A DNA stretch of 64,000 bases from Nannochloropsis salina CCMP1776. Its lineage: Eukaryota > Sar > Eustigmatophyceae > Eustigmatales > Monodopsidaceae. The stretch lies in contig SDOX01000021.1 in assembly GCA_004565275.1 (NCBI GenBank), positions 1,398,978 through 1,462,977 on the forward strand, given 5' to 3'. Both the position numbers and the translations under genes were made by a program. Shown here piece by piece: positions 2,315 to 64,000 of the stretch (within the stretch, counting starts at the first letter, position 1; each line of letters begins with the position of its first letter). The notes beneath the pieces were generated by a model. It searched no databases, was not told where the DNA came from, and saw only the letters and a list, made by a program, of their open reading frames with translations.

Positions 2315-2985
2315 ATGCAGCAAGCCTGGTTGTTCCTCCTAGACACAAGCACCAGCATGGGTGACCCGTACGCCCATCCAGCCCTCCTTGATGACCTTCC
2401 TTCAAGTATACAAGTCCCTCCACCCTCCAAACTCCAAGTTGCACAAGAAATAGTAACCTTGCTGGTGGCAGCGCAGGCAGTGGCGGAGTCAGGCAAGTTT
2501 TTTTCTGGGTACAACAAAGCCATGCGTGTGTTGAGAGAAAAGAAATCTGACAAGAAAGCCAGTCTCATGGAAGCATTGGACGAGGGAGGATGGCAAGTCC
2601 TTTTCGTGTCGTGCTTCGTGCTGACATCCTTCGTGTGTCTCGTTTCCCAGGGAGGGCCACTCGAAAGTGCCAAATCGGGGCCTGTGCCTTTGGGACCGAC
2701 GAGACATCTCACCCGCTCGAAGCGTTGGGGGCAGGGTATGAGAATTTGCTCGAGGTCTCCCCCCTCCACCCCCTGGATTTTGGGCGTTTGCTGGACGTGC
2801 TCCACCTCCCTCCCTCCCGTACTGGCGTCAAAGGCGACATACTGGCCGGTCTGATCCTGGCAGTGGACCGGCTGAAAGCCCGGACGGAGGTGTTGGGCAA
2901 ACGCTGCCTCCGGCATTTGGTGGTTGTGACGGACGCGTGCTCGGCTCTGCGGGAGGTGGAGGGCCTAGAGGCGGTGGTGGAACAG
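2315..2985 (+). pseudogene. Ku80 N-terminal vWA half, 3'-truncated
   Basis: Two exons, 2315..2492 and 2651..2985 (171 codons), then a donor with no matching downstream exon. The spliced product is the N-terminal von Willebrand A domain of Ku80/XRCC5: LLDTSTSMGD near residue 8, SKLQVAQEI, IGACAFGTDETSHPLEALG, a GYENLLEVSPL block, GDILAGLILAVDRLK and LRHLVVVTDA. The first intron uses a GC donor (CAG|GCAAGT), required to keep frame. Ku80 pairs with Ku70 to bind DNA ends in non-homologous end joining and at telomeres. The beta-barrel, arm and C-terminal regions (normally ~500 further residues) are absent from this locus. Instead the intron runs into the 5' exon of an opposing gene. This is either a genuine broken copy or an assembly error. 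Confidence 0.75.
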
Positions 2986-3121
2986 GTTGGAGGGAGGGAG
3001 GGAGGGAGGGAGGGGGAACCCGCAGGCTGCGTAAGAAACGAATGGGATCACCCCCAGGTCTTCCCGTCCCTCGTCTCTCCTCCCTCTCTCCCTCCCGTCC
3101 ACCCTCCCTCCCTTCCCTCAC

Positions 3122-3355
3122 CTTATCAATGATCAACAAGTCGTGGCCACAGTACAAGACCTGCACGGGCCCCGCCTCCTCCAGCGTGCTTGGTTCGCTT
3201 CGTCCCCTCCCTCCCCCCCTGCCTCCCCCTCCGTCCTCCACGGTGCCAGAAGCATCCAGGTCCGCTTGTCCACGCGTTGGTATGATGACGCGGGCGAGGT
3301 CGATGCTGTGTGTGCATTTACATGTTGTTGAGCATGGTTCCCACGCGGCAATCAT
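3122..3355 (-). pseudogene. RluA-type pseudouridine synthase 5' exon, 3'-truncated
   Basis: A single exon from an ATG at 3355 to a donor (GATAAG|GTGAGG) at 3122, 78 codons in phase 0. The last ~17 residues, GPVQVLYCGHDLLIIDK, match the conserved opening of RluA/RluD pseudouridine synthases (pattern: V-L-Y-x-D/G-x-D-L-L-V-I-x-K-P). The preceding ~60 residues are low-complexity Gly/Arg-rich, as expected of a poorly conserved N-terminal extension. No catalytic-Asp exon follows on the minus strand: the next 300 bases are intron and then Ku80 coding sequence on the other strand. Family assignment rests on a short motif plus an excellent donor at the expected place, so it is moderate. Confidence 0.55.
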
Positions 3356-4275
3356 CGTGGGGGAAGTGATCAGTCGTTGACTCCTCGTGAGGCTTCGCCT
3401 TGTCGGTCGAAAGCAAACACAGGCATTTAGCGTTCAAAGGCAACATGGAAAGGCTTTTGGCGGTAGAGGAAAAGCACACAGTCCCATAAATCCATTTGTG
3501 CCGACACCTGATCGTCATTCTTCAGGGGATTCATGCGCATGTTTATGCTTCGAGATGTGCAGTACATACCTCGATTGGGAGGGCCTTGATGCCTGTATAA
3601 GCCCACATGCAGGAAAGGGGGCACGAATAGACGAGGACATGCACTTAAATCCCCATTTGTGTCTGTCTGTGTAATTTATTCTCTTGTTGTTGATATGGGT
3701 GTTGTAGACTCGGAGTGTTGTTTCAAGTGGTTGGGGTGAAAAGGAAATATGCCAGGAGGTTAAACGACAGAGCCAGCGTGTAGTCAGTGTACACGTATCG
3801 ACGCGTACGACAGACCGGTATTACAGAGAAAGTAACAAATATGTACATGTGTGATAGACCTGGTATACTCTTTGTTTATCAACGACGCTGTAACGACGAT
3901 TACTGAAGGTGGTAACCAATCACCTTTCCGAATGTCCGCCGCATAGATTAAGTTCCAAATGAAGCAACGATTTTCCACTTTTACACCGCGACACACGACG
4001 AAATCGTTGATTACTTCCTTCGATCAAGACACGATTAATATTCGCAGCTCAAGAGTAAAGCTTCTCTCTCGTTATATCCCTGCACGAGAGACGTGTCATC
4101 ATTCTGCTCTTGCGCCGTGGCGCTCTCAACTCCTGGACACCTTATCCTCATCGATCTTCACGGTGCCAACTGAACTCACAGCCGGAAAGCGAATCTTGAA
4201 CAATAAGGGCCATGTTACGCAAATTTTTCTCCTATAACATAACCAACATCCTCTTTTTTGAGTCCATCGCGGCCC
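3356..4275. other. Noncoding stretch between RluA exon and PreP 3' end
   Basis: No coding pattern, RNA gene or repeat recognised. It probably holds the promoter of the pseudouridine synthase exon and the PreP 3' UTR. Confidence 0.5.
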
Positions 4276-5605
4276 TTACAGCAACTCAATAACTTCCAGT
4301 CCCGCATCTTTACCGAGCTTCGCGTTAGCGTCCTCCAAGGCCTTCTTCGAACCCACTACTGCCGTCGTGGCGCGCTAAAAGGCGAGAAAGATACCCGGAA
4401 GACGGAAGAGGAAGGAGTGAGAAGGGAAGGAAGTAAGGAAATCCCAATGGGGCATATATGATTCCAGGCATGATGATCCGGGGGGGCATGGAATCAGGGA
4501 GGGAGGGTGGGAGGGAGGGAGGGAGGGGAGAGGAGGGGAGGGGGAGGCGAGTGGGGCGCACCGCTTTGAGTCCTTGAAGACGTTCGGCAAATTCTTCAAA
4601 GTCCTTGCTGGACGTGGACAATATCTCGTCGCGCCATCGCTGCCTGTCTTCCGGAGACTCCTCCTGAGGACAGGAGGGAGGGAGGGAGAGAGGGCGGGCG
4701 GGAGGGAAGGAGGGAGAGAGNNNNNNNNNNNNNNNNNNNNNNNNNNNNNNNNNNNNNNNNNNNNNNNNNNNNNNNNNNNNNNNNNNNNNNNNNNNNNNNN
4801 NNNNNNNNNNNNNNNNNNNNGGAGGGAGGGAGGAAAAGAGTCAGAAGGCATGGAAGATCTAAAAGCGCCTTGTGAACGGGACATCAATACAATATACGAA
4901 ACAAATGACAAACCTAGTCTTCAGCCAGGATAGAATCAAATGCCATCGCATCCTCTTGAACCCTCCTTCTTCTCCCTCTTTCCTTTCTTTCTTCCTCCCT
5001 CCCTCCCTCCCTCCCTCCCTCCCTCCCTCCCCACCTTGTTCTCGTCGTCCACGCTCACACTCATCACCTCCGTCTGTGTCTGTCGGTGCCGGTATAGCGT
5101 GACCTTGGCACCGTACTCCTGCACAAATTCAGACTTCACCATTTCATAGCTGGGGAGGGCCCGAGGGAGGGAGGGAGGGAGGGAGGGAGGAGGGGAGGGA
5201 GGGAGAAATACGTGAGCAGAAGCCTCGCTTCGCACCAAGGCCCTTCCAGACTATTCCCTCCCTCACTTCATCCATTCTGTCGTACCAAGGATGATGAGCC
5301 ACGTAGTCCCAGGATTTTTTTTGTTGCTTGTCCCCAAATACGTCACGTGCCTTGTCCAAGCGCGTGACCACACCTCCGCCCAGATCCACGGCGGCGAAGA
5401 CAGAACGGCCCCGATGGAAAGAGGAAGACAGGGCACGCGCGGAGACCGCACCACCACGACGCTGGGCGTTCAGAATGGACATGGGGGTGCCATTGCGGGT
5501 GCTGCGCACTAGGAACGAAGCTGAGGATCGAAGTAGCATCATGAGGGCAAGGGAGCCGAGAAAAAGGCGACAGAAGGCCTGAGTGGGACGAAAGCTTGCG
5601 CTCAT
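4276..5605 (-). CDS. Presequence protease (M16C/PreP), interrupted by assembly gap
   Basis: The N-terminal exons are 5286..5605 and 5035..5149; the C-terminal exons are 4562..4663 and 4276..4374, all in phase. PreP degrades cleaved targeting peptides in mitochondria and plastids. The N-terminus has a signal-like hydrophobic stretch and S-A-S-F, then HHPCYEMVKSEFVQEY, LYRHRQTQTEVMSVSV and DDENK, matching the PreP start. The C-terminus has WRDEILSTSSKDFEEFAERL and ALEDANAKLG before the stop, matching the end of plant PreP. About 900 central residues, including the inverted zinc motif HxxEH, are missing. They should lie between 4664 and 5034, which contains 100 Ns flanked by GGGA repeats, so the gene is probably intact in the organism. 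Donor TTG|GTACGA for exon 1 was chosen because it is the only one that closes the phase. Confidence 0.8.
4721..4820. other. Assembly gap (100 N)
   Basis: Exactly 100 Ns, a conventional placeholder for a gap of unknown length. GGGAGGGA repeats lie on both sides. The gap removes the middle of the PreP gene. Confidence 0.98.
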
Positions 5606-6481
5606 GCGGCTCCGCTGGTCACAGCAATTGCGTTCGAGGGATGTGAGCTGGTCAGTGGACAAAAGAAAGAAGTAGGGCCGTGAAAAATAGGATAGAAGGA
5701 GGGAAGTATCTGACTCGTCTTTCGAGAGCAACGGGACGCAAGGTATTGCAACGAGCTGTGTTTTATGCAGCCAAAGCTATAACGACAGATACGAAAAGTG
5801 CCCCTCGGCAGTCAATGCTAGAATACAGGTGGATCAGGACGCATATCGTTCGTTGGTATCACAATTCCCACGGCAGCATGGTGGCACGCGTCTCATATCA
5901 CGACTTCGCTCAAGCTATCTGAGTCACTTGGGGCGATACGCAGCTTCACTTTTGATGCTTTTTATCCCGAGAAAAAGGTATTGATGCCTTTGCAGTCCAG
6001 CGAAGCATCGGATACGCTCACTTAGGCTTGCGAGGGATTTATGGTTTCAGTGTGCGTGCTTTATATGGGGTACACTTATCGTTTGTGTGGAAGGCAGGTT
6101 TATCCCAGCTCGAACGCAACTACAGGAGCAGGACCCTTCCTTTCCAAACTTTTGGAAGCGTAGCACGTACCAATTTTGGCTAACAACAGTAGTCTACCGA
6201 TATACACGAAGAAAGTGTGGGCGTTTGATTCACTGTCCCTCGCAGCAATATCTTTATTTTTGGGATGGACTGTGTAAGGGGTGCTCTTTCCTCTTAACCT
6301 CCCCCCCCCCGTCCGGAGTGGAAAATAGGAGTGCTTAGGTAATAAAGATAATATGAGTGATTATTTTTACGGGTTGAGAATAAGCATCATACACCTCCGT
6401 TATTTTTCCTTTCTTACAAACCAGCCGGACAAGCCTCTGCATCCATGAGGCAACCTGGGGAATCCAGCAAGCAATGGTAGT
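5606..6481. other. Divergent promoter region, PreP / DPH4
   Basis: Low-complexity-free sequence without a recognisable gene, between two divergent genes. A run of ten C lies at about 6301. Confidence 0.5.
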
Positions 6482-7334
6482 ATGAACAGTACACCTACCC
6501 TGTCTTTATACGATATCTTGGGTGTTTCTCCCGCTGCCTCGCCCTCCACCATCAAACGCGCCTATCAATCAGCTGCTAGAGCCACGCATCCTGATAAGGC
6601 TGCGGCCCATCCGAAAGGTGGTTGTCGGGCCAGACCGGGTCATGTCTCCTCTCCCAGGTAAGGAATGCAGAAGAACCCTTTATCCTTAAGGTTTGGGAGC
6701 AAAGTACTTTGAATGCCTGGCTGTGTGTGTGGGCTTCAAGCCTGTGCCGACGTGTTTCCTCGCAATCCCTTCCTTGGCCTGTCCCGGCTCTCGAAAAGTG
6801 CCGCATGGGACCTCACCACGGAGAACGAGGAAGTTGGCATGGAGGAAGTGAAGCGGGGAGGATGCACGCTGCCGCCACGAATGTTGATACAGAACCGACG
6901 CTGACCTCAATTTACCTGCTTTCCTTCTGGTTTTCAGATTCACTTTCTTGGAGATACAGGCGGCATGGGATGTATTGAGGGCCCCGGATAGCCGCGCCGC
7001 GTACGATGAAGGCTGGGAGCGACAGAGGGATGAGGAGGTTGAGGGCTTCATCGCGGAGGAGGTGAGGGTGGCGGAGATGGAGGAGGAGGGCGGGGGGGAG
7101 GGCAGGAAGGAGGGGTGGCTGCTGTATCCTTGCCGGTGCGGCGATGCCTTCCGTGTCCCGAAGGAGGAGGGACGCTTTCTCGTGAGGGGGGCAGGGAGGC
7201 GAGAGACAGAGGAGGGTGGGACGGAGAAGGTTCAAGTGGATGGAAGTGGAGGAGGGGGAGGTGGCCAAGATGGCGGAGCTGCAGTGGTGGTGACTTGCGA
7301 TGGGTGTTCGTTGCGCATCCGTGTCAGTGGATGA
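6482..7334 (+). CDS. DPH4: Diphthamide biosynthesis protein 4 (J-domain, CSL zinc finger)
   Basis: Exons 6482..6657 (donor CCCAG|GTAAGG) and 6938..7334 give 190 aa in phase. DPH4/DNAJC24 (yeast Jjj3) is a J-protein that delivers electrons/iron for the first step of diphthamide formation on elongation factor 2. The J domain opens with LYDILGVSPAAS, carries the HPD motif (ATHPDKAAAH) and closes with FLEIQAAWDVL and SRAAYDEG. The C-terminal DPH-type/CSL zinc finger has its cysteine pairs in YPCRCGDAF and TCDGCSLRIRV. A ~15-residue insert, encoded up to the splice site, sits between helices II and III. DPH1 of the same pathway is encoded at 38.7-40.3 kb. Assignment is strong. Confidence 0.9.
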
Positions 7335-7741
7335 TGATGGAAAAGGACGCGAAGGAGGCTGTCGTCAGGGGATGATGAGGGAAAGGACCCGGGTCCACGC
7401 CGATTGAAGGGCGAAATTGCCGCCCACTGCGACTACCGCCAAGCTCGTATTGCACATAGATAGTCAGAAAGTAACGTAAAATCTCACGACGCTTCTACTC
7501 GAGCGTTGCCGTCAGAATTTAAACACACGTGATATGTTCGACGCCACACCCACCTAGCCAGACGTCACCACGGGCGCGCAAGCGCATGTTCCTTTCTTCT
7601 TTCTATTCGACGGATTTTCGCCTGCTTCCTCGGCATTTTCCGCCCCCACACCCGACCCTATCACACGAGGCTTGTCATATGTACCTTCCTATACACACTA
7701 CACTCTCACTCACACCACACCTCCCTCTCTACCCCCCCCTT
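7335..7741. other. Convergent 3' flanks
   Basis: Lies between the stop codons of DPH4 (plus) and the unknown protein (minus). No gene seen; C-rich toward the right. Confidence 0.5.
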
Positions 7742-62935: not shown

Positions 62936-63789
62936 ATTACCAACATAACGGCAAATGGCTCTGTCATAGTCATACACATAGAAAAAATATGAAAAATCCC
63001 ATTATTATACATATACTTTACGAGAACTATTTGATGTCCATGTCTATAGACTTTGCAAAGGGTCTTAACAGACTCTTTATTTCCAGAAACCCTTGATTTT
63101 TAAAAATCGTACAATGTGTCGGGTGCGAGGTATGATAAACAATGATACGGGCTACTCTGAAGAGATCGTTTGCCTTGGACGACGAATGATTATATTTCGT
63201 GGTAGTCAATAGTGTTACATCCTGAAAGGATCCCCCTGCCGTTTTTCGCAGGCGATGGCGTCACCCCGCTCTGAACCAAGGTCGCCTCGTGGAGTTTGGC
63301 CACGGTGGGTAACGTGGCTGCGTCCAGCAGCGACTGCGCCCCCAGCCACTGCGCCAATCTCGACACAACCGATCAATACGTGCGCGAAGTCCAATCAGGG
63401 AGCAGGAAGTGAGGGGGGAATAACTGGTAAAAGACTCGAAAAAGTAATACGGATTGCGTGTGGGCCATTTCGCCCATAATATTTTGGGTGCCGAGCTTCG
63501 CTCCTTTGCTTCGCTGGTCAACTGAATTTGTGTTTGTTTTCTTTGCACTACATCGCGTCCACTTACCGCTCGACACATTTTGGACAGAGTTATACCAACT
63601 TAACTTTCGACAATATTTTTTTGGACAGACTTATAACCACCTCGACAACCCCTGTCGAGGGGTTAGGTTGTCTGGCTGTTAGGTGGAGTACAGTAGCTTC
63701 TACTATTGCTGCTGCCCCCCCGTTCACCAACACCCAACAGCTTTACTCACGCGCGTGTATAGATACACACTTTCTCACCACACATACTG
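62936..63789. other. Subtelomeric spacer
   Basis: 0.85 kb between the last gene and the telomere. No subtelomeric gene family recognised. It holds a perfect 8-bp stem-loop at 63640-63660 and two interstitial TTAGG units at about 63661-63668. Confidence 0.6.
63640..63660. other. Perfect stem-loop near telomere
   Basis: CCTCGACA and TGTCGAGG pair perfectly around a 5-base loop, ACCCC. Confidence 0.7.
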
Positions 63790-64000
63790 TTAGGGTTAGG
63801 GTTAGGGTTAGGGTTAGGGTTAGGGTTAGGGTTAGGGTTAGGGTTAGGGTTAGGGTTAGGGTTAGGGTTAGGGTTAGGGTTAGGGTTAGGGTTAGGGTTA
63901 GGGTTAGGGTTAGGGTTAGGGTTAGGGTTAGGGTTAGGTTAGGTTAGGGTTAGGTTAGGTTAGGTTAGGTTAGGTAGGTAGGTAGGTTAGGTAGGTTAGG
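63790..64000 (+). repeat. Telomere, (TTAGGG)n
   Basis: Twenty-four exact TTAGGG units at 63790-63933, G-strand running to the window end, as at the right end of a chromosome. The last ~67 bases are mixtures of TTAGGG, TTAGG and TAGG. The unit is the one used by animals, fungi and many stramenopiles, and differs from the plant TTTAGGG. Confidence 0.99.

Follow-up and report, generated by a model that had tools for sequence, protein, structure and literature searches.

The stretch of DNA analysed here (the window) comprises 64,000 nucleotides of the alga Nannochloropsis salina CCMP1776, positions 1,398,978 to 1,462,977 of its contig, and belongs to an assembly of 26.5 Mb in 103 contigs, all of which was searched. 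Contig and window end together, in a TTAGGG telomere array (63780-64000) that decays to TTAGG and TAGG variants at its last bases. About 61 kb from this chromosome end, near the left edge of the window, two 5' gene parts face each other: (i) the N-terminal part of a Ku80 gene on the plus strand; and (ii) the N-terminal part of an RluA-type pseudouridine synthase gene on the minus strand. Between them lies a short stretch of GGGA and CCCT repeats. Local searches and the count of assembly gaps covered 94 kb, namely the window plus 30 kb of adjoining sequence on its left.

The Ku80 part is made up of two exons. Exon 1 (2315-2599, plus strand) opens with an ATG at 2315 and has its 3' end at approximately 2590-2599, while exon 2 (2651 or 2655 to 2985, plus strand) carries the N-terminal domain and is supported by XRCC5 alignment, by a Ku80 profile and by codon usage. 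When the two exons are joined at a guessed splice, the resulting fragment of 203 amino acids matches XRCC5 chains in a search of PDB sequences (best E-value 3.1e-4), and each of the nine PDB sequences that match at E-values up to 1 is an XRCC5/Ku80 chain; by these matches, its vWA-like N-terminal domain is nearer to XRCC5 than to XRCC6. The profile, which was built from 13 Ku80 proteins (that of Arabidopsis and others sharing 59-85% identity with it), matches the frame of exon 2 at an E-value of 4e-5 with filters off. According to a codon-usage table drawn from nine open reading frames (3,946 codons), the Ku80 frame is the sole positive one over 2314-2590 as well as over 2655-2985. In the assembly the fragment is single-copy, two of the rows returned being the window itself and two others lying at E-values of 1.1 and 2.2.

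Neither in the whole genome nor on the fragment itself does the Pfam Ku_N model detect these exons, which argues that the Ku80 of this alga is divergent. A Pfam scan of the fragment returned a weak vWA match (E-value 0.009, below the curated cut-off) together with two families at chance level, and no protein relatives were found at E-values up to 0.1 among 2,045 candidates, in a search by protein length that short, exon-sized relatives could escape. The proposed Ku80 donor at 2986 (GTTGGA) looks weak by eye, a GTAAGA is present at 3031, and Ku80 coding may continue into the GGGA array instead of splicing at 2986; the last sure Ku80 base is therefore placed at about 2985. The first-pass annotation of this DNA had recognized a plus-strand Ku80 N-terminal part that ends at this point, and that identity stands. 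As judged from sequence, the locus as assembled is an incomplete Ku80 gene.

On the opposite strand, exon 1 of the RluA-type gene (3122-3355, minus strand) ends in VQVLYCGHDLLIIDK and is followed by the donor GTGAGG; the ATG at 3355 is a candidate start only. An 18-residue motif of this exon, scored with a matrix built from seven paralogues of the same genome, reaches 26.2 bits and ranks first among the 77,467 18-mers of the window's six-frame open reading frames, the next scoring 18.5 bits. By codon usage, the RluA frame scores 13.5 bits over 3121-3240 and 11.1 bits over 3121-3330, and none of the other five frames is positive over either stretch. Over shorter pieces it is ahead without being alone, with 6.1 versus 2.7 bits for a plus-strand frame at 3121-3180, 5.6 versus 0.8 bits for a plus-strand frame at 3126-3200, and 3.6 versus 3.2 bits for another minus-strand frame at 3180-3330. 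Motif rank and codon usage thus bear out the original call of a minus-strand, RluA-type exon ending at 3122. Pfam scans of the exon and of a 21-residue spliced RluA peptide gave no match, and a PDB search with the exon returned two low-complexity matches only.

The extent of the first RluA intron was assessed by scoring all GT-AG pairs that lie 40-400 bases apart on either strand of the window with a codon-ending donor phase (n = 156,366). The best of these pairs joins the donor at 3121 to the acceptor TCGTTTCTTACGCAG, whose last base is 3027; the spliced product reads K|P-A-G-S and scores 34.5 bits, a value bracketed by the leave-one-out scores of the seven real paralogues (27.8-38.2 bits). 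The 11 next pairs listed score at most 27.1 bits, and all of them share the donor at 3121. Because the best-scoring pair is also in phase, RluA intron 1 (3027-3121, minus strand, 95 bases, GTGAGG...TTTCTTACGCAG, with a CCCT/GGGA tract inside it) is whole, and exon 2 starts at 3026 with Pro-Ala-Gly (3018-3026, minus strand), which completes K-P-A-G. The N-terminal hydrophobic strand ending in K-P-x-G is therefore present in the gene at the junction; such a motif ending in K-P-A-G is shared with RluA-type pseudouridine synthases (PF00849), and here it is split by the 95-base intron. Past P-A-G-S, the minus strand runs through the GGGA array into sequence antisense to Ku80 exon 2, and no RluA motif is visible in its translation. 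The RluA locus as assembled holds only a 5' fragment. The first-pass annotation had found no acceptor for either gene and no remaining exons within view; for the RluA-type gene both statements give way to the acceptor at 3027 and the exon start at 3026, whereas for Ku80 the latter one holds, as a search of the remaining window detected no further exons.

Since the RluA intron is complete and exon 2 begins at 3026, the unexplained junction shrinks to about 40 bases (2986-3026), within which the Ku80 side gives way to RluA exon 2, in or beside a (GGGA)n array. Tandem Repeats Finder places this array at 2989-3014 on the plus strand (26 bases, 6.5 exact units), and as assembled it is 26-33 bases long. 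The wider stretch (2986-3121) is rich in GGGA at its left end and in CCCT at its right end, as had been described, and is able to pair with itself, as is usual for such arrays; its predicted RNA fold is -76.9 kcal/mol, a value calculated without a shuffle control, and its longest exact inverted match is 12 bases. The earlier picture of two introns joined head-to-head through a palindrome is not borne out, as nothing is missing from the RluA intron and the join falls at a single GGGA array. When 2900-3200 was searched against the DNA of the whole genome, the matches in 61 of 62 rows were confined to array-like parts, whether nearby or elsewhere, and bases 3026-3050 matched only themselves; a DNA search of a phage collection gave no match. 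The sequence runs seamlessly through the join, with no N run. The break sits at the GGGA array.

The 3' parts of both genes were sought in the entire 26.5-Mb assembly, and neither was found. These searches were run exon by exon with a loose first look, after which only the best candidates were scored, so that a divergent, intron-split half could escape them. For Ku80, the models of the Ku N-terminal domain, of the barrel (PF02735, at E-values up to 10) and of the arm (PF03730) each matched Ku70 only, and the model of the PK-binding domain (PF08785) had no match in the assembly. An Arabidopsis Ku80 query reached Ku70 (E-value 0.0025), exon 2 of the window (0.05) and one place at chance level (0.57), and a second plant Ku80 query reached Ku70 and the same exon 2 but nothing else. 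The two plant queries reach exon 2 at E-values of 0.03-0.05 only, and neither of them detected a Ku80 barrel in the assembly. As a control, the best stretch of the Arabidopsis query in human Ku80 was located at residues 223-657, that is, the barrel and the C-terminal side, and the missing part of Ku80 should for this reason be the easier one to detect; split barrel exons elsewhere could be missed, given the divergence of Ku80 here. Nearer to the locus, the Ku80 profile (filters off) was run on the window plus 30 kb of flanking sequence on the left, where exon 2 and the Ku70 control alone stood out; the next match had an E-value of 5.2. In comparison with known Ku80/XRCC5, the N-terminal domain of exons 1 and 2 aligns, whereas the barrel, the C-terminal arm and the PK-binding tail were found neither in the assembly nor, with the Ku80 profile, in the window.

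For the RluA-type gene, a search of the whole assembly with PF00849 returned 13 matches, counted as 10 genes, and none of the 13 lies in the window. Eight of the 10 genes start within profile position 5, and in the other two the N-terminal motif was read from the sequence; each of these 10 genes has its own front part, and no orphan RluA catalytic half was detected among them. The gene at the junction differs from known RluA-type pseudouridine synthases in that its catalytic H-R-L-D segment and the later parts were not found at this locus. Six paralogue frames, chosen by motif, were also compared with these 94 kb and gave nothing below an E-value of 0.4, in what is a weak test, as one of its two control loci had an E-value of only 0.7 and the other was unmatched. 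The whole-genome PF00849 search is the better evidence of the two.

Other components of end joining are present in this genome. The Ku70 gene is an open frame of 621 amino acids (start position provisional) with Ku_N, barrel, arm and SAP domains. A search for protein relatives, with a query of which Ku70 makes up the last 69%, gave eight matches covering 65-73% among 7,994 candidates scored, all with Ku70-like domains and seven with SAP; on the strength of this coverage and domain content, the eight are read as matches to the Ku70 part of the query and not to Ku80. The best Ku70 relative matches at 100% over 618 amino acids, and a relative from Nannochloropsis oceanica has 52% identity. A ligase IV gene is located on contig C15, where 376 residues of the frame match DNA ligase 4 best (E-value 6e-41). 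As genes for both Ku70 (with barrel, arm and SAP) and ligase IV are present, end joining looks retained in this alga. Separately, contig C93 has another gene whose N-terminal ligase region is similar and which also appears ligase IV-like by eye.

Assembly gaps are found close to the junction. The 94 kb covered contain three N runs, two of them 100-N gaps and the third 3,255 N long. The first gap (4721-4820) is 1.6 kb away from the junction, within a GGAG array, and the window has no other N run; the second adjoins a GGGA array 7 kb to the left of the window, and the run of 3,255 N lies approximately 18 kb to the left. Of the four edges that flank the 100-N gaps, three are array-like, versus 3.8% of 90,476 12-mers, so that arrays of the GGGA type are places where the assembly breaks. 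The 3,255-N run, which may be a withheld stretch of sequence, is not array-like at its visible edges, although an array of 80 bases comes to within about 20 bases of it on the left. The join between the two genes thus lies inside a repeat of the kind where the assembly also breaks. Such a join in a GGGA array, with nearby gaps in the same kind of array, resembles repeat-induced assembly collapse or scaffold misjoin, but differs from them in that no N run is present at the join.

We propose that the Ku80 and RluA-type genes are convergent neighbours, and that a single segment between them, which would have held both 3' parts, has been lost from the assembly. Going by the normal lengths of the two proteins, this segment would measure at least about 2 kb. 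Its loss would have occurred at the array (2989-3014), where the assembler would have joined the flanks across the repeat, and we infer that the living alga carries the segment. Any convergent pair without its middle would show facing 5' halves, so that one deletion or one assembly drop suffices, and because a single segment would have held both 3' parts, one event would explain both absences. That the assembly dropped this segment at the GGGA array, and that the convergent pair thereby lost its middle, is probable. Against this reading stand the size of the array in the assembly, which is shorter than a common short read, so that a collapse would need longer arrays in the real DNA, and the lack of an N run to mark the join. 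The divergence of Ku80, through which 3' exons could be missed, and the array-free edges of the 3,255-N run also speak against it. On balance, an assembly hole is the most likely explanation of the feature, which is probably not a broken repair gene.

On the other hand, a real deletion between repeats could have removed the 3' halves of both genes from the strain, which would then have no classical Ku-dependent end joining. This is unlikely; the failure to find either 3' half in the assembly, the seamless join in a window whose single N run lies elsewhere, and the distance of approximately 61 kb to the telomere array are all compatible with a deletion, but the Ku70 and ligase IV genes are present, the frames of the surviving exons are open, and nearby assembly gaps occur at the same kind of array. 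That the strain truly lost the DNA-gripping part of Ku80 and kept Ku70 and ligase IV is more doubtful still. Were it so, Ku70 would work by itself or serve a different function, and repair would depend more on homologous recombination. Efficient gene targeting has reportedly been achieved in some Nannochloropsis, and a loss of Ku80, if true, might bear on that.

The first-pass annotation had offered either an inversion breakpoint or an assembly misjoin, and it is the misjoin side that is favoured here. An inversion, a translocation or a misjoin of distant places would leave the 3' halves elsewhere, where they might be too divergent or too split by introns to be detected, as could happen with exon-by-exon searches that score the best candidates only and with a weakly conserved Ku80 of which even the exons present escape the Pfam Ku_N model. 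It too is improbable, as Ku80 exon 2 was itself recovered by both plant Ku80 queries, and as the 10 other PF00849 genes include no orphan catalytic half and each have an N-terminal part of their own. With neither 3' half found within the limits of the searches, and with one event sufficing, the inversion reading is unnecessary.

Finally, it is very improbable that 2986-3140 is an ordinary intron of Ku80 alone (donor, GGGA, CCCT, acceptor) with Ku80 exon 3 following on the plus strand and the RluA exon an antisense accident, a reading rejected by codon usage (less clear on short pieces) and splice scoring: plus-strand AG sites do follow the CCCT tract at 3140 and 3152, and one plus frame is weakly positive over the short pieces given above, but the RluA frame is higher there, all plus frames are negative over both 3121-3240 and 3121-3330, the RluA motif with its spliced P-A-G ranks first among all pairs scored, and no Ku80 continuation was found in the window with filters off.

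Taken at face value, the locus would mean that the alga lost Ku80; the evidence points instead to an assembly hole at a GGGA array. Claims of gene loss in this genome hence need read support, as parts of neighbouring genes may be lost at GGGA arrays with no N run to mark the place. A literature search on Nannochloropsis and Ku80 returned, as judged by title, nothing on these genes there, and a search on assembly and GGGA arrays returned nothing decisive. A proposal to interfere with Ku genes is cited in PMC10641005, and PMC5814478 describes a different assembly, of 30.7 Mb.

Two further genes to the right of the junction were read in the window. An apparent multi-exon gene on the minus strand (4260-5600) has introns that carry GGGA/CCCT arrays, one of which is broken by the 100-N gap. 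On the plus strand, 6480-7335 begins with a J-domain, followed by a segment resembling a CSL-type zinc finger; read from the sequence by eye, it resembles an intron-containing gene of the DPH4/DNAJC24 type.
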